Assembly (NCBI RefSeq): GCF_001830555.1
Contig: NZ_MIAM01000041.1
Location: forward strand, 1-64,000
Reading direction: 5' to 3'
Length of the DNA stretch: 64,000 nt
Source: Sphingopyxis sp. RIFCSPHIGHO2_12_FULL_65_19
Lineage (GTDB): Bacteria; Pseudomonadota; Alphaproteobacteria; Sphingomonadales; Sphingomonadaceae
In this document: piece after piece, positions 7,329 through 13,400 of the stretch
How positions within the stretch are numbered: position 1 is the first letter of the stretch
Layout: each line of letters opens with the position of its first letter
Program-made: the position numbers and the translations under genes
The notes under the pieces: model-generated
Told to the model about the DNA's origin: nothing
Databases searched by the model: none
Seen by the model: the letters and a program-made list of their open reading frames with translations, nothing else

Positions 7329-7377
7329 AAATGGCGCACCCGGAACGATTCGAACGTCCGACCCTCAGATTCGTAGT
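7329..7377 (+). repeat. attL: 49-bp copy of the tRNA-Arg 3' end
   Basis: It is identical over 49 bp to 13321-13369, and identity stops on both sides (G versus A before, TTT versus CTG after). It contains the CCA end, the T arm and the anticodon arm's 3' side of tRNA-Arg but lacks the 5' half, so it is not a tRNA gene. It marks the junction with the xdhC side of the chromosome. Confidence 0.93.
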
Positions 7378-7494
7378 TTTGTGGTCCGCCTTTCCTCTGG
7401 TTTCCGGTGCGCCTCCCCGATTTTCCAGACTCGACGCATTTCTAACGCTGTTCCTTTCCTGTTCTCGCCTTGCCTTTCCGTCGCTTGCCGCTAG

Positions 7495-7516
7495 GATGAT
7501 TGCCAGATGATTGCCA
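7495..7516 (+). repeat. Tandem GATGATTGCCA x2, probable integrase arm site (left)
   Basis: Two perfect 11-bp units lie head to tail, one helical turn apart, 18 bp before the integrase start codon. The core GATTGCCA recurs twice with the same 11-bp period at the right end of the element (13260-13278). The location suggests integrase binding for recombination and possibly autoregulation of int. Confidence 0.65.
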
Positions 7517-7534
7517 ACGGAGCGGGCAAGAGAA

Positions 7535-8773
7535 ATGGCGACGGGCAAAATCACAAAACGCGCGGTGGACGCGATGCGGGCCGGGCCTAGCAATGACTTC
7601 CTGTGGGACACTGAGGTTAAAGGCTTCGGGGTAAAGATCACCCCGGCGGGCAAGCGGGTCTATATCCTGCAATACCGCCTTGGCGGCGCTGGGACGGCGA
7701 CGAAGCGCTACACCATCGGCGCGCACGGCCCATGGACGCCTGACGCTGCCGAAAAAGAGGCAAAGCGGCTGCTCGCGCTGGTCGATCAGGGGAAAGACCC
7801 CGCCGACGATAAGCGCCAGCGGGTCCGCGAAGCCACCGACCTGACCTTTAGCGCGGTCGCCGATCGATTCGAGCAACTGGAATTGCCCAAGCGGTGGGCG
7901 AAGTCGGGCGGCTTCGTCAAAGACGCCTTGCGCCTTCACCTCCGCCCCAAGCTGGGCAAGCGGCCGCTCCCGTCGATCACGGGACAAGAGATTGTCGCGC
8001 TGCTTGATGACTTACAGGGCGGGCAGGCCATGCGCCGCAACGTCTATGCCGTCGCGCATCGCATCTTTCGTTGGGCACAGGGCCGCGGTGAGATCGACCG
8101 CAACCCGCTAGAGGGTGTCGAGGCGCCTAAGCCGGTGGCGAGCCGCGATCGCGTTCTGTCCGATGAGGAACTGCGCCTTGTGTGGATCGCGAGCGAGGAA
8201 TTGGGTGCGACGTTCGGCGCGCTGGTTCGCCTGTTGCTGCTGACCGGGCAACGCCGCGATGAAGTCGCCGGTCTGGAATGGCGGGAGCTTGACCGCGCCC
8301 GCGCCGAGTGGATTTTGCCCGGTGCCAGGGCAAAAAATGGCAGGGAGCATCTTGTGCCGCTGTCACTGCAAGCCGTAGCCGAATTTGACGCGCTCGCAGG
8401 CGGCGAGACGTGGCCGCGCAAAGGCTATGTCCTAACAACCGACGCGGGCAAATCGCGCGTCTCTGGCTTCTCAAAAGCCAAGCGTAAGCTAGACGGTGAG
8501 ATTGCGGACCTGATCGAGGACGACGCGCCGCCGGTGCAGCCGTGGCGCTTCCACGATCTGCGGCGCTCGGTCGCGACGGGCCTTCAACGCCTTCGCATCC
8601 CGTCTGACTGGATCGAGGCTGTCCAGAACCGTCGCAAGGCGGGAATTGCTGGCACCTATCAGCGGTATGCCTTTGCCGACGAAAAGCTGGAGGCGTTGCA
8701 GACGTGGGGCGGGCACGTCGCTTCGCTCATGGTTACCAAGGATAATGTGGTGCAGATCGCGGGACGCCGATGA
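7535..8773 (+). CDS. int: Tyrosine-type site-specific integrase (P4-like)
   Basis: The product is 412 residues from ATG 7535, which follows a purine-rich GGGCAAGAGA. The N-terminal DUF4102-type arm-binding domain (about residues 1-90) includes FLWDTEVKGFGVKITPAGKRVY. The core-binding region spans about 100-190. The catalytic domain shows R240 in TGQRRDEV, H340 and R343 in HDLRRS, and the nucleophile Y375 in GTYQRY. The second conserved His (usually LNH) is replaced: the stretch reads AVQNRRKAG, with Arg near residue 366. It catalyses insertion into and excision from tRNA-Arg. It sits next to attL, at the end away from the intact tRNA, reading inward, and overlaps the next gene by ATGA. Confidence 0.92.
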   Translation: MATGKITKRAVDAMRAGPSNDFLWDTEVKGFGVKITPAGKRVYILQYRLGGAGTATKRYTIGAHGPWTPDAAEKEAKRLLALVDQGKDPADDKRQRVREATDLTFSAVADRFEQLELPKRWAKSGGFVKDALRLHLRPKLGKRPLPSITGQEIVALLDDLQGGQAMRRNVYAVAHRIFRWAQGRGEIDRNPLEGVEAPKPVASRDRVLSDEELRLVWIASEELGATFGALVRLLLLTGQRRDEVAGLEWRELDRARAEWILPGARAKNGREHLVPLSLQAVAEFDALAGGETWPRKGYVLTTDAGKSRVSGFSKAKRKLDGEIADLIEDDAPPVQPWRFHDLRRSVATGLQRLRIPSDWIEAVQNRRKAGIAGTYQRYAFADEKLEALQTWGGHVASLMVTKDNVVQIAGRR

Positions 8774-9435
8774 AAAAAGGGCAATGGGATTTCTACGAGA
8801 TCGTTCTGTGGATTGGTTCTCGGTCGCCACAATTGATCGCGGATTTCCAATCTTTGCGGGATGGGCGCCAGTATAACAACTATCGCCCTCCTTCCGGTGG
8901 CGAAATGTTCTTAATTCACTCCCTTTTGGACGGTGCCGTCGTTGGCTACGGCAACGCGATCGATGAGCTGCGAGTGGCCCTACAGGATAACGCATTTTGC
9001 GCCAGCGCACTTGGCCCCGATGGGACAAGAGCGATGCGTGCTGCTTACGAATTTTCTGACTGGTCGATTTCTTATGAGACCAGCGGGACTTATGTCACAC
9101 GCGAGCTGTTCGACGTGCGGGCGTCGGCTAATGACGTGATCTTCCATTGGCCGCAGTCGTGCTCCGATCTCACGAGATACTCTGACAGTTCAGGTGGCCC
9201 CGGCCGTAAATCGGTAAAGCATATTGTGGCTGGCGAGATATGGGACAGCCGCAGAAGTCGAAAACTACCGCTCTCTCCTACTCTTAGGGAAGAGGCCGCG
9301 GCGTGTCTCGCCGATTTCGATGCATTGGACGGTGTGCAGGGTCTGGCCCGACCTGAGAAGCCCAAAACGGTAGAGGGTTGGCTGCGCGACCAATACAACG
9401 CGGCCAAAGCGGCAGCCCAAAATAGCGGGCGATAA
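8770..9435 (+). CDS. Hypothetical protein of integrative element
   Basis: The product has 221 residues and is translationally coupled to the integrase (ATGA overlap). I do not recognise a family. It is rich in aromatic residues, has no signal peptide or membrane segment, and ends in a charged, helical tail (WLRDQYNAAKAAAQ). Codon use and base composition are visibly more AT-rich than the surrounding chromosome. Candidate roles for a gene co-translated with int are directionality or an accessory defence or regulatory function; none can be shown from the sequence. Confidence 0.7.
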   Translation: MKKGQWDFYEIVLWIGSRSPQLIADFQSLRDGRQYNNYRPPSGGEMFLIHSLLDGAVVGYGNAIDELRVALQDNAFCASALGPDGTRAMRAAYEFSDWSISYETSGTYVTRELFDVRASANDVIFHWPQSCSDLTRYSDSSGGPGRKSVKHIVAGEIWDSRRSRKLPLSPTLREEAAACLADFDALDGVQGLARPEKPKTVEGWLRDQYNAAKAAAQNSGR

Positions 9436-9474
9436 ACTATAAAATCAGAGCAATTTATCGCCAGTATTTATCGC
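9428..9474. promoter_or_regulatory. Three TTTATCGC-type repeats upstream of the AlpA-like gene
   Basis: GGCGATAAA at 9428-9436 is the inverted copy of TTTATCGCC at 9454-9462, and a third copy (ATTTATCGC) lies at 9466-9474, 13 bp after the second. They are AT-rich in GC-rich surroundings and occupy the only real gap between element genes. This suits binding by the AlpA/excisionase-like product encoded just downstream; that binding is inferred. Confidence 0.45.
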
Positions 9475-9496
9475 TTCCAGCGTTTGCCAGTCCTTT

Positions 9497-9518
9497 CCTG
9501 CCCGAACCATTGGGCAGG
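9497..9518 (+). promoter_or_regulatory. Hairpin overlapping the ribosome site of the AlpA-like gene
   Basis: CCTGCCC (9497-9503) pairs with GGGCAGG (9512-9518) across an 8-nt loop. The right arm overlaps AGGAG (9516-9520), the ribosome site for the start at 9528. The structure could limit translation of the regulator, or act as a weak terminator after the unknown gene upstream. There is no T-run. Confidence 0.4.
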
Positions 9519-9527
9519 AGAACCGAC

Positions 9528-9737
9528 ATGCAAACTATCGATATTCTGGCGGTAAACGAGGATGAAGCCTCGAAGCTGATTGGCGTTTCAGTTTCATCCC
9601 TTCAAAAAATGCGGATGCGCGGCGATGGCCCGCCCTATGCCAAAGTTGGTCAGCGTGTCCGCTACCGTCCGTCCGATCTGGCGGCATTCGTCGCAAGCCG
9701 TATCGTTCGCTCGACCAGCGAGCAGGTTGCTGCGTGA
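9528..9737 (+). CDS. AlpA/excisionase-like helix-turn-helix protein
   Basis: The product is 69 residues from ATG 9528, with AGGAG 7 nt upstream. The sequence contains a MerR-like winged HTH seen in AlpA, Xis and 'helix-turn-helix domain 17' proteins: VNEDEASKLIGVSVSSLQKM, then GDGPPYAKVGQRVRYRPSDLAAFV. Family role: DNA-binding recombination directionality factor or activator of integrase expression. It follows the TTTATCGC repeats, its likely target. Small size and position after the integrase match P4-type islands. Confidence 0.8.
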   Translation: MQTIDILAVNEDEASKLIGVSVSSLQKMRMRGDGPPYAKVGQRVRYRPSDLAAFVASRIVRSTSEQVAA

Positions 9738-9740
9738 CCT

Positions 9741-9956
9741 ATGGGCGGGGTCATCAACGGTCGTTCGCACCGTAACGCGAAAGACCGCACCGACGTAAAG
9801 CCGCGTGCGGTCCCCGAATTGCCTAAGCTGGCGGGCTGGCTCGAATTAGATAGCGCAGAGGCGCGACGGCTTCAAGTGTGGGGCCAGCGGATCATCGACG
9901 ACATAAAGCAATGGCGGCACCGCGAGGCTCGCCGCCGCGAGGGGGTGCGGCCATGA
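9741..9956 (+). CDS. Small hypothetical protein of integrative element
   Basis: The product has 71 residues and starts 3 bp after the AlpA-like gene. It is basic, with an acidic/helical middle (LAGWLELDSAEARRLQVWGQ) and an Arg-rich end. No family is recognised. Tight spacing, with an ATGA overlap at its end, indicates a polycistronic message from the AlpA-like gene through the large protein. Confidence 0.6.
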   Translation: MGGVINGRSHRNAKDRTDVKPRAVPELPKLAGWLELDSAEARRLQVWGQRIIDDIKQWRHREARRREGVRP

Positions 9957-10177
9957 CCGACAACCCGACAACTGCCGTCGTGCGCATCAAGTTTCTGGCC
10001 GAACACCAACGGCAAGCCTGCAACGCAATCGAGACCGGCAAGGGCCTGTTGAGCCGTGCCGAATCCTCGTTTCTCCACCGCATCCGCGAACAGGTCGTCA
10101 TCACCGACAAACAGCGCCGGTATCTCAACGATCTCGATGTTCGCCTGAAATGGGAGCTGTCCCTTGAACATCTCTGA
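9953..10177 (+). CDS. Small hypothetical protein of integrative element
   Basis: The product is 74 residues from ATG 9953, overlapping the previous stop as ATGA. It is mostly helical and charged: KFLAEHQRQACNAIETGKG, then FLHRIREQVVITDKQRRYL. It has no recognised domain. Its end overlaps the start of the 880-residue gene by 14 bp, so the two are translationally linked and may be expressed in a fixed ratio. It could be a partner or chaperone of the large protein, but nothing in the sequence proves this. Confidence 0.62.
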   Translation: MTDNPTTAVVRIKFLAEHQRQACNAIETGKGLLSRAESSFLHRIREQVVITDKQRRYLNDLDVRLKWELSLEHL

Positions 10178-12806
10178 AACCGCGTGGGCGCTTTTCCACG
10201 CCCACACGCTCGACGACATGGCGCAGCGTGCATGGGAAGCGGGCTATTTTCCCGACCATGCCGAGCGCCCGACCGTTGACGAGTTTGTCACGGCGCTCGG
10301 CGATACCTACCGCGGCGTCAATCGGACGTTCCGCCCCGATGACTATGCCGAGCTTGATGCGTACGGCGCCGCTCGCGATCAGCGATTTGCTGTGGAGCGT
10401 GCCAAGCAGGAAGGCGCCCCGCTTGCCGACGACATGGGCCAGCCTGCCACCTATGACGACATCATCGCGAACAGCCCGCCCGCCCACGGCTATGACGACT
10501 GGACGAATGCGGTTGTGTCGAAGGTCGGGAATATCCGTGTCGACAAGTTGGAAAGCCCGCAGGATATCGGACAGGCGCTCAAGATCGCCGAGAACGTGGC
10601 CGGCGGATTCGATGCTGCCAAGCGCGGCAAGATCAGCTTCGCCGAGACGCAGCAACTGGCCCAAGACCTCGGGATGACGGCCGACGATCTGCTTGCCCGT
10701 CGCAAGGGGCAGGCGTTCAGTGCAGAGGAAGCCTATGCCGCGCGAGCGATCCTCGCGAAGTCTGGCAACGAGTTGGTCACGATGGCAAAGCGCCTTCGAG
10801 CGATCGGCGAAGATCCCGGCTCTGAGGCGCTGTCCACCTTCCGTAAGGCGATGGTCCGTCACGCTGCAATTCAGGAGCAGGTATCGGGCATGACGGCCGA
10901 AGCGGGCCGCGCGCTCTCCGCCTTCCGCATAGCGGCTGATAGCCGTGACGTTCCGGGGCGCATCCTCGAAGGGCTGGCGAACAGCGGTGGCAGCTCGCGC
11001 CGTCTGAAAGAAGCCGCAGATGCTATCATCGATCTTGAGGCTGACCCCACCAACCTGAACCGATTTATCGAGAAGGCCAGCAAGCCGAAGTTCTCCGATC
11101 GCGCGCAAGAGATTTGGTACAACTATCTTCTGTCCGGTCCGACTACGCACATGGTCAACACGCTCTCCAACACGATGACGGCGCTGGGGCAGATTCCCGA
11201 ACATGCCATCGCCGCAGGCGTTGGCGCCGCCCGCCGCGCAATCAGCCGGGACGCGACCGACCGGGTTCTGTTTTCCGAACTTGGCGCCCGCTCGCTCGGG
11301 CTTTTGCAGGGAACCAAGGAAGGCATTCGTCAATTCGCTCGCGCTTTTCGCACGGGCGAGTCGGCAGACTTCGTGACCAAGATGGAGCAGCAGACGCAAA
11401 AGGCGGTGTCGGGGATCAAGGGCGATATCCTCCGCATCCCTACCCGCTTGCTGACGGCAGAGGACGAACTGTTCAAGGCGATGGCCCGACGCATGGAGCT
11501 TTCGGGGCTCGCGGTGCGCCAAGCCGCAAAAGAGGGTCTCAGGGGGCAGGAAGCGAAAGACCGTGCCGCCGAACTGCTCGCCAACCCCACTGATGCAATG
11601 ATGGAGAAGGCCCTAGACTATGGACGTTATCTCACTTTTCAGCGTCCGCTCGGCGATGGCTTGGCTGGCGGCCTGTCTCGCATCACGCAAAACCAGCCGA
11701 TGTTCAAAGCGATCCTCCCCTTTGTCCGCACCCCGACTAACCTGATCAAATTCACGGCGGAACGCTCGCCCCTTGCTCCGATGGTCAAGGAATGGCGCCG
11801 CGACTTCGCAGCCGGTGGCGCTCGCCGCGACCTCGCGATTGCCAAGGTGATGGTCGGGTCAGGGATGGGTGCGACGATTGCCGAACTGGCAAATCAGGGA
11901 GTTATCACCGGCTCACCGCCGAGCGACGAGAACCAGCGCCGCCTGATGATGGCGAACGGCTGGCAGCCCTACAGCATCAAGATCGGCGATCAATATTATA
12001 GCTATCGCCGCCTCGATCCTTTCGCGATGACGTTCGGCACCGCTGCCGATCTCGCTACGATGGGCGACGGGATGACCGAGAAGCAACGCGACAAGGGCGC
12101 CGCGCTGTGGACTGCCTCGGTCGTCGCCAACCTCGCGAGCCGCACATGGCTCTCGGGCGTGACCGACGCACTGGAAGCCTTGCAAGACCCGGAACGCTAC
12201 TCGGGCAACTTCATCAAGCGGCTGGTCGGCGCTGCCACGGTTCCCACCGGATCGGCGCAGATTGCCCGCACAATGGACCCGACGATGCGGGAGACTCCAG
12301 ATATCCCCACCTACATGTCGTCGCGGATGCCGGGGCAGTCTGACAACCTCCTGCCCAAACGGGACGTATGGGGTCAGCCAATCGTCGCAGAGGGCGGCGT
12401 CGGGCCTGATATCCTCTCGCCGATCTGGACCACCACCGACCGCAAAGACCCCATCACACGGGAGGCGCTGCGCGTCGGTGCCAAGGTGTCGCCCCCGAGC
12501 AAGGGTGACCTGACGCCCGAACAATATGACAAGCTACAGCCTGTCGTTGGCGATCTCGCTCGCAAGTGGATCGGGCAGCTCATGGCCTCTCCCGACTACA
12601 AGGCGATGGATCGCGAAACTCAGGCTGATGAAATCGGTGATGTGATGGAGGCCGCGCGCAAAGAGGGCAAAGCCCATGTCCTTGGCGGGGAGCCGTTGAA
12701 CGATGTTCGCCCGGTCAAGAAGCCCCGCGGGTCGTCGAATGCGTCGGGCCTGCCTGACGGGTTCGCGCTCGACGAACTGCCGGAAGGTTTCGTCATGGAC
12801 AGATGA
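10164..12806 (+). CDS. Large phage-internal/ejection-protein-like product (880 aa)
   Basis: The largest gene of the element. No signal peptide is present. Residues 1-300 are charged and helical. WYNYLLSGPTTHMVNTLSN (about residue 317) starts a part with several Ala/Gly-rich helices, and ILPFVRTPTNLIKFTAERSP and GWQPYSIKIGDQYYSYRRLD follow. The protein ends with a repeated LPDGF/LPEGF motif. These short signatures resemble large internal virion or 'polyvalent' proteins of podophages, thought to enter the host with phage DNA; this is recognition from memory, not a search. No head, tail or packaging gene accompanies it. It could be a remnant, a satellite protein packaged in helper virions, or a host-takeover protein. 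Confident as a real gene, moderate for the family. Confidence 0.75.
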   Translation: MNISETAWALFHAHTLDDMAQRAWEAGYFPDHAERPTVDEFVTALGDTYRGVNRTFRPDDYAELDAYGAARDQRFAVERAKQEGAPLADDMGQPATYDDIIANSPPAHGYDDWTNAVVSKVGNIRVDKLESPQDIGQALKIAENVAGGFDAAKRGKISFAETQQLAQDLGMTADDLLARRKGQAFSAEEAYAARAILAKSGNELVTMAKRLRAIGEDPGSEALSTFRKAMVRHAAIQEQVSGMTAEAGRALSAFRIAADSRDVPGRILEGLANSGGSSRRLKEAADAIIDLEADPTNLNRFIEKASKPKFSDRAQEIWYNYLLSGPTTHMVNTLSNTMTALGQIPEHAIAAGVGAARRAISRDATDRVLFSELGARSLGLLQGTKEGIRQFARAFRTGESADFVTKMEQQTQKAVSGIKGDILRIPTRLLTAEDELFKAMARRMELSGLAVRQAAKEGLRGQEAKDRAAELLANPTDAMMEKALDYGRYLTFQRPLGDGLAGGLSRITQNQPMFKAILPFVRTPTNLIKFTAERSPLAPMVKEWRRDFAAGGARRDLAIAKVMVGSGMGATIAELANQGVITGSPPSDENQRRLMMANGWQPYSIKIGDQYYSYRRLDPFAMTFGTAADLATMGDGMTEKQRDKGAALWTASVVANLASRTWLSGVTDALEALQDPERYSGNFIKRLVGAATVPTGSAQIARTMDPTMRETPDIPTYMSSRMPGQSDNLLPKRDVWGQPIVAEGGVGPDILSPIWTTTDRKDPITREALRVGAKVSPPSKGDLTPEQYDKLQPVVGDLARKWIGQLMASPDYKAMDRETQADEIGDVMEAARKEGKAHVLGGEPLNDVRPVKKPRGSSNASGLPDGFALDELPEGFVMDR

Positions 12807-12852
12807 GGAAAGCTCTATATCGCTAGGCGTGCTACTAGGGGAGATCACGCCA

Positions 12853-13212
12853 ATGTCGATTTTAACGCGCGCTACCATGTTGGCCGCAGCACTTCTCGTT
12901 TTGCCATCCAGCGCCCATGCCGAGGCAACGGGCCGGGAGTTTCTGCAAAACATCGACAAAGGAGGCGAAAGCGCTGAAGTCTATAAACTGGCACTTTTCG
13001 CTTACAGCACCGGGATTGGATGGGCGCATTCAGCGATGACAAACGATGGCGCAGCGCCAGCATATTGCGTGCCCGACACTCTTTCCATCACCGCCGACCA
13101 AGTTCTGAGTATGGTGCGAGAAGCCGTCAAAGCACAGCCTGAGCTTAAGGAGTTGCCAGCGGGCCTCGTCGTTTGGGCCGCCTACCTTTACACCTTCCCC
13201 TGCCGCCCTTGA
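12853..13212 (+). CDS. Secreted Rap1a/Tai-like immunity-family protein
   Basis: The product is 119 residues from ATG 12853, with GGGGAGA about 10 nt upstream. A signal peptide (LTRATMLAAALLVLPSSAHA) precedes a mature domain of about 95 residues. The domain has YCVPDTLSITADQVLSMV, a Pro-containing helix, then LPAGLVVWAAYLYTFPC. Paired Cys residues and the 'P-A-x-L-V...A...FPC' end match the Rap1a/Tai family, known for periplasmic immunity proteins against T6SS amidase effectors. No effector gene is adjacent. As element cargo it may give protection to the host, or it may belong to the broader group of this domain without T6SS ties. Confidence 0.7.
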   Translation: MSILTRATMLAAALLVLPSSAHAEATGREFLQNIDKGGESAEVYKLALFAYSTGIGWAHSAMTNDGAAPAYCVPDTLSITADQVLSMVREAVKAQPELKELPAGLVVWAAYLYTFPCRP

Positions 13213-13259
13213 CGCCTTGATAGGGATCGCCAAGATTGAAGCGCGAAACCGCTCCGCGA

Positions 13260-13278
13260 GATTGCCATATGATTGCCA
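13260..13278 (+). repeat. GATTGCCA x2, probable integrase arm site (right)
   Basis: GATTGCCA occurs at 13260-13267 and 13271-13278, 11 bp apart and in the same orientation as the pair at 7498-7516. A near copy, GATCGCCA, lies at 13225-13232. The site is 42 bp inside attR. Matching core, spacing and orientation at both element ends argue for integrase arm binding. Confidence 0.6.
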
Positions 13279-13320
13279 GTCCGCAAATTGCGGAAGGTCC
13301 ATCCAGCTAAGTTATTGAAA

Positions 13321-13369
13321 AAATGGCGCACCCGGAACGATTCGAACGTCCGACCCTCAGATTCGTAGT
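13321..13369 (+). repeat. attR: 49-bp repeat inside tRNA-Arg
   Basis: It is identical to 7329-7377, and here the repeat completes an intact tRNA gene (13324-13400, minus). Integration therefore preserved the tRNA, with the element supplying or duplicating its 3' portion. Confidence 0.93.
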
Positions 13370-13400
13370 CTGATGCTCTATCCAGCTGAGCTACGGGTGC
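13324..13400 (-). tRNA. tRNA-Arg (anticodon ACG)
   Basis: Read on the minus strand, GCACCCG pairs with CGGGTGC, followed by G and CCA. The D arm is GCTC-AGCTGGATA-GAGC and the anticodon arm TCAGA-CTACGAA-TCTGA, giving ACG. The T arm GGACG-TTCGAAT-CGTTC is complete. Length is 77 nt. It is the integration target of the element. Confidence 0.96.

Follow-up and report, generated by a model that had tools for sequence, protein, structure and literature searches.

The window, a stretch of 64,000 nucleotides of Sphingopyxis sp. RIFCSPHIGHO2_12_FULL_65_19 (contig NZ_MIAM01000041.1), carries a 6.0-kb element integrated at a tRNA-Arg gene. The ORF of 880 residues that the earlier note had placed at 10164-12806 was confirmed within this element as a real ORF with a TTG start. 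The features, by position in the window, are as follows.

7329..13378, no strand: integrated 6.0-kb element, attL to attR (58-nt direct repeat, 93%, spacing 5,992)
7329..7386, no strand: attL, a copy of the tRNA-Arg end (58-nt repeat)
7511..8773, plus strand: tyrosine integrase, 420 aa (PF13356, PF22022, PF00589; 84% identical to the integrase of the G427 element)
8770..9435, plus strand: 221-aa protein of unknown function, with no Pfam or PHROG match
9510..9737, plus strand: HTH_17 protein, likely excisionase or regulator (PF12728, E 1.2e-10; phrog_66, E 4.1e-8)
9741..9956, plus strand: 71-aa ORF (homologue on contig C31 of genome G224, 64% over 53 aa)
9953..10177, plus strand: 74-aa gene (homologue on G224 contig C31, 54% over 70 aa)
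10164..12806, plus strand: 880-aa putative fusion ORF, ejection-protein core and C-terminus (from profile, relatives, alignment and fold)
10164..10205, plus strand: 14 codons similar to the beginning of the small ORF next after the 74-aa gene on G224 contig C31 (7 of 14 residues identical in a pairwise alignment, our own reading)
10206..12803, plus strand: region of homology with the C-terminal half of ejection proteins of full length (83% identity, residues 712-1576 of the 1,576-aa L002/G224 protein)
12750..12791, plus strand: C-terminal PxGF repeat (residues 863-867 and 872-876)
12853..13212, plus strand: Rap1a-like protein, 119 aa, adjoining attR (PF18602, E 1.2e-6, 29.3 bits against a cut-off of 27.7)
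13321..13378, no strand: attR (58-nt repeat), inside tRNA-Arg(acg) at 13324-13400 on the minus strand

The earlier note had spoken of a lone copy in a mini-element, and the mini-element stands: the 58-nt repeats delimit the element at the tRNA-Arg gene, and Pfam and PHROG scans of its seven ORFs found neither a replication gene nor any other virion gene. A second copy of the ejection protein was not found in the window's own genome. The 74-aa gene, present in 2 of 298 genomes with the window's own included, overlaps the start of the 880-aa ORF by 14 nt, and GGGAG at 10152-10156 is, by eye, a plausible ribosome site ahead of that ORF. Three more related integrases occur elsewhere in the window's own genome (G000), on contigs C6, C49 and C30 (69%, 50% and 44% identity).

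The sole PHROG match of the ORF is PHROG 6651, 'internal virion protein' (E 3.7e-47), which spans residues 422-824 in two stretches, the conserved core. Used as a tblastn query, the ORF matched 59 of 50,697 phage records. The motif LLSGPTTHMVN, singled out earlier, is present and lies within a strongly conserved block, in which L322, L323, S324, P326, T328, H329, N332, S335 and N336 are invariant across 18 aligned sequences. The AlphaFold2 model is mostly helix, with a mean pLDDT of 65 and a pTM of 0.49; because this model is middling, the sequence evidence bears the family assignment. Searched against viral models, it gave 50 matches at E<=0.001, the named ones of which include internal virion and large polyvalent proteins. 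A metabolic or surface protein, the outcome that the earlier note had set against its own reading, is rejected: the ORF has no Pfam match, the model found no PDB fold at E<=0.001, and the best PDB profile match has an E of 0.14. By its profile, the ORF is a podophage internal virion (ejection) protein, with which the viral fold matches agree, and the podophage type first suggested by its motifs is thus borne out by profile, phage records and fold.

It had also been taken for a self-standing lone gene; here the comparison with relatives gave a different result, for the ORF is only the C-terminal portion of a longer ejection protein whose N-terminal domains and partner genes are absent from the element. 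In one scan, the alignment of every one of the 15 relatives begins at window residue 15-17. The 11 of them that are uncut by a contig end or gap (L011, L013, L014 and L016 run into contig ends or contain unread bases) are ORFs of 1,485-1,874 aa, carrying about 500-950 residues ahead of the core that the window copy lacks. In the alignment with its closest relative, L002/G224, the window tracks the ejection protein from 10206 on, and the junction aligns as MTLADTAFALLEAH in the window against MNISETAWALFHAH on G224 contig C31 (our own reading). The ORF seems to consist of 14 codons of a small upstream ORF joined in frame to the C-terminal ~866 codons of an ejection protein, the fusion partner being likely rather than certain because the junction match covers only 14 codons. 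A lone, selected 880-residue gene was not taken as the default, since the uncut relatives are so much longer upstream and the junction falls in an upstream small ORF, and it is kept as a rival below. By eye, a 7-bp inverted repeat (GTGGGCG / CGCCCAC, with an 8-nt loop) lies at window 10184-10205 and stops precisely at the putative breakpoint 10205/10206; it could be left over from the deletion or be due to chance.

In G427, of the same genus, a 17.7-kb element (L080) occupies the same tRNA-Arg; its integrase is 84% identical, its ejection protein is full-length (an ORF of 1,655 aa, start uncertain), and it also has a gp7-like gene, a K2 gene and a Rap1a-family (PF18602) gene in the same place as in the window, beside attR. 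Because the tRNA, the integrase and a full-length ejection protein are found together there, an internal-deletion derivative is the best reading of the window copy. On the simplest account, we infer that the window form arose by one internal deletion, of some 11-12 kb for a parent like the G427 element, which would have removed the replication genes, the partner ejection genes and the N-terminal part and left an in-frame fusion. On G224 contig C31 the homologues of the 71- and 74-aa products follow an HTH gene and precede further small ORFs and a prim-pol-type gene. Since the homologue of the 74-aa gene sits there among replication-side genes, that gene most likely adjoins the ORF through the deletion; of the coupling between the two claimed earlier, the overlap is real, and the adjacency itself is most likely a product of the deletion. 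Between the window and G224 the core has a dN of 0.112 and a dS of 1.17 (ratio 0.096), and among 560 sites at which two outgroups agree there are 20 window-specific against 17 G224-specific changes. By these figures the core of the window ORF is without decay since its split from G224, selection before and after the deletion being indistinguishable in them.

An ejection-protein match was found in 24 of 397 genomes of the family, the window's own included. Open frames of 1,330-1,874 codons are present in 19 of the other 23, fragments in G157, G258 and G313, and a weak match (26%) in G320; among the same 397 genomes the 880-aa fusion was found in the window's genome only. G313 (L098, L099) shows a second short arrangement, in which an integrase, an HTH gene and a piece equivalent to window residues 14-362 lie beside tRNA-Gln, with no att pair found. 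In G455 (L081) a 4.7-kb element at tRNA-Arg encodes an integrase of 70% identity and a protein related to prim-pol, and the ejection gene was not found there.

The larger relatives were characterized from 21 fetched regions with an ejection protein, 11 of which have att pairs; the repeats are 24-63 bp in nine and weak in G367 (15 bp) and G058 (14 bp). These 11 elements, of 17.5-26.0 kb, hold integration, replication and ejection genes, are found at tRNA-Arg, Asn, Gln, Tyr, Lys, Glu and Thr and at one site without a tRNA, and follow a similar plan, with an integrase, an HTH gene, replication genes and the ejection gene at the far end. The ejection protein is present in 11 of 11, family K2 in 10 and the K1 integrase in nine, further integrase families appearing in the scan; HTH/AlpA, primase, Prim-Pol, DUF3987 and AAA helicase families occur in several. 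Genes were called by our own codon-usage script, in which small genes may be wrong. The family scan took in all 81 called genes save the ejection gene in four elements, seven genes of i427 and, across the eleven, 59 of 80 proteins of at least 180 aa, with K2 and ten known replication or gp7-family proteins left out; proteins below 180 aa in the other seven elements were scanned in part. The lists (the best 25 of 56, 25 of 31 and 25 of 44 families, many of them of no known function) contain integrases, regulators, primases, helicases, loaders, transposases, a toxin-antitoxin pair, DNA ejection and unknowns; families for head, portal, terminase or tail are absent from them. Run on viral contig L077 as a positive control, the scan did name one head and one tail protein. 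Relaxases and type IV secretion families are likewise missing from the lists, save for NikA-like matches of two small ribbon-helix-helix proteins. A BLAST of the genes of two podophages against the elements gave ejection-protein matches only; it was discarded as evidence of absence because it also missed the head protein of L077. From this gene content we read the larger relatives as phage satellites with ejection proteins of their own, presumably dependent on a helper. Behind the ejection gene in several elements stand K14 genes of DUF5681 type (for example L015:13409-13849), a candidate packaging gene; with a small terminase in mind, DUF5681 was compared with phage records and matched four, three under genes named hypothetical and one in a record without annotation, so that phage annotation does not bear out a packaging role.

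In the G427 and G332 elements the ejection gene is preceded by gp7-like and gp20-like genes, which is also the arrangement of the P22-type gp7/gp20/gp16 genes as found in VSN-002, a podophage of Sphingopyxis (PMC9302152). The gp7-like proteins of G427 and G332 are 61% and 55% identical to gp7 of VSN-002, and the K2 proteins of the two are 28-30% identical to its gp20, a likeness seen for G332 and i427 only. Unlike in the P22-type trio, the third gene is unrelated (VSN-002 gene 40 against the ORF protein gave an hhalign probability of 0.2 per cent), gp7-like genes are present in 3 of 11 complete elements (the gp7 profile found 5 sequences in all), and the window has neither partner. VSN-002 was considered as the helper and set aside, its gp7 being close and its gene 40 unrelated; it serves as a pointer. 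Coat families PF19821 and PF11651 occur in 11 and 8 of 394 genomes, respectively; of the 24 ejection-protein genomes (of 397), PF19821 was found in one (G282) and PF11651 in none, and a search for a resident helper found neither of them in the window's own genome.

The intact proteins have an SNase-like N-terminal domain, a part that the window copy has lost. The N-terminal part matches staphylococcal nuclease in the PDB with a best profile E of 3.4e-5; Foldseek gives it as SNase with probability 1.00, at a best E of only 1.6e-3 and on a poor model (pLDDT 53), and L015 has a Pfam SNase match below its cut-off. Of 33 sequences, 25 carry the SNase motif DGDT together with RLxGxDAPE; that of the window is not one of these. 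L015 also has a Peptidase M15 match near the C-terminus, again below the cut-off.

The LPDGF/LPEGF end that the earlier note had remarked on is real: the window ORF has two PxGF matches against 0.03-0.04 expected in shuffles. Across 33 sequences there are 70 PxGF matches, in 20 of the sequences, against 2.7 expected; W-type (W-x-x-F) motifs occur in 8 of the 33, their total of 40 being an overcount, since a single site can match the pattern twice, and most of the remaining sequences are marked by WPG repeats. All these tag numbers are inflated because the patterns were defined after the sequences had been read. The counts leave out L002 as apparently the same locus as G224, L011, G258 and G302 have no full ORF, G313 is in the counts and absent from the 32-row tree, and L005 was set by hand to W-type on one such site. 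The three tag classes are nearly exclusive in intact proteins. In 27 of 28 proteins with two or more tag copies a single class is kept, G088 being mixed, and this agreement between distant copies within one protein is a stronger point than the counts. On a tree of 32 cores the tag class needs 9 changes, where 2 would be the minimum and shuffling gives a mean of 11.9 (6 of 200 shuffles were as low); it is weakly clustered and often changed. Nine phage homologues, picked out of 63 (59 phage records, one plasmid and three viral contigs), have no DGDT, and 10 pieces of them no PxGF or W-type motif. Tags in other proteins of the elements (6 in 250 proteins against ~2.7 expected) are not convincing.

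It is probable, in our judgement, that the ORF represents the conserved core plus the C-terminal end of an ejection protein from a family of satellite-like integrated elements of the Sphingomonadales. A helper podophage would supply head, portal, terminase and tail, and the ejection protein or proteins of the element would be packed in the helper head, exit before the satellite DNA does and contribute to the envelope conduit. Weighing against this reading are the small number of elements with gp7-like genes (3 of 11), the unrelated third gene of VSN-002, the scarcity of PF19821 and PF11651 in host genomes and the shortness of the junction match. The accessible text of two sources has podophage ejection proteins packed in the procapsid and forming a conduit for DNA (PMC8954989, PMC8402733), and that of a third has those of P22 probably docking on the scaffold (PMC12005531). 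This literature makes such a mechanism plausible, not proven. A role in host entry with a helper, in line with the host entry and helper hijacking suggested earlier, holds for the window only by extension from the larger relatives; by itself the window copy is most likely unable to replicate or to form a conduit, and it may still excise and make the fusion protein. Of antirestriction, also suggested earlier, the profile, fold and gene-content comparisons made here gave no sign.

A bolder reading, which we put forward tentatively and regard as possible rather than likely, is that intact satellites swap the DNA-injection proteins of the helper for their own, docking-tagged for the procapsid of a given helper. 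The tags (PxGF, W-x-x-F, WPG), at the ends and in a linker, would then mark uptake into the procapsid, and the switching of tag class between close relatives is as expected if class follows the helper. Such proteins would deliver the SNase-like domain along with the DNA, and they could pass exclusion systems aimed at those of the helper; compare SieA, which, in the portion of PMC10883804 available to us, blocks P22 DNA entry via gp16 and gp20, foreign ejection genes giving partial escape. If true, a satellite with its own entry machinery moves the contest between parasite and helper to DNA delivery, ejection proteins whose tags vary in nature become available for the study of procapsid entry, and lone internal-virion genes in small genomic islands like the 6.0-kb element find an explanation.

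The larger elements might instead be podophage prophages that have shed their head and tail genes, with the window as a later stage of decay. Their ejection proteins are homologous to those of podophages, and the window, G313 and the fragments in G157 and G258 show that decay occurs. However, prophage remnants would have to account for 11 att-bounded elements of similar plan at different sites, with no head, portal, terminase or tail family among those listed, and for ejection ORFs that stay open in 19 of 23 other genomes over 1,330-1,874 codons; we consider this origin unlikely. The fusion itself could be the working protein of a mini-satellite, made of the phage-shared core and the C-terminal tags and mobilized by a full satellite together with a phage. 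What the ORF has in common with viral contig L077 falls within window residues 98-840, the fusion is in frame behind a plausible ribosome site, the integrase and HTH genes are intact, and the window branch has no excess of changes (20 against 17 at 560 sites). Yet a recent deletion would look alike, the fusion is present in one genome only and no replication gene was found in the 6.0-kb element; moreover, no part of the protein is consistently kept, as G313 keeps a different one, and we hold a functional fusion to be quite improbable.

Least of all do we favour a polyvalent protein of some other type of island, delivered by conjugation or acting in the cell and with no role in a virion, which we judge very improbable. 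The fold matches do include 'large polyvalent' proteins and the intact proteins have the SNase-like domain, but the gp7- and gp20-like neighbours in G427 and G332 speak for a virion, and the families listed include no relaxase or type IV secretion component beyond the two NikA-like ribbon-helix-helix matches.

Under the satellite reading preferred here, comparison with known systems gives partial likenesses. The known satellite strategies act on the capsid size of the helper or on its terminase, or bring a capsid. EcCIMP1, an integrated satellite of the PICI type, resembles the present elements in its integrase, AlpA and primase and in having no identified capsid or terminase genes, and it encodes proteins that resemble DNA transfer proteins and its helper Kapi1, a P22 relative; it differs in its enterobacterial host, in that those genes are discussed as packaging candidates and in that helper and transfer were shown there, the comparison being one of descriptions in the accessible text of PMC11773190. 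In our literature search, with preprints and most subscription papers outside it, EcCIMP1 is the one clear precedent for a satellite with DNA transfer-like proteins, and term searches of the accessible text of two satellite reviews (PMC6893505, PMC11389934) found no discussion of ejection proteins. The PICMI satellites, as the accessible text of PMC10803314 describes them, are likewise small, integrated and without capsid-remodelling genes, but their hosts are Vibrionaceae and that text mentions no ejection genes.

The podophage proteins of PHROG 6651 (from Pelagibacter, Roseobacter and Synechococcus phages, L077, L078 and the Bordetella phage-like plasmid pA) are 23-41% identical in the core and share the conserved motifs, the helical predicted fold and the position as last gene of the ejection block; unlike the element proteins, they come from genomes with head and tail genes and, in the nine examined, have no DGDT or repeated tags. 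Polyvalent ejected proteins are large and modular, with an enzyme-like domain and an ejection-type core. The present proteins differ from them in belonging to apparently capsid-less elements, and the window copy in having no enzyme-like domain. In L005 and L009, an extra insert of about 200-250 residues in the N-terminal half has, by eye, an ADP-ribosyltransferase-type look.
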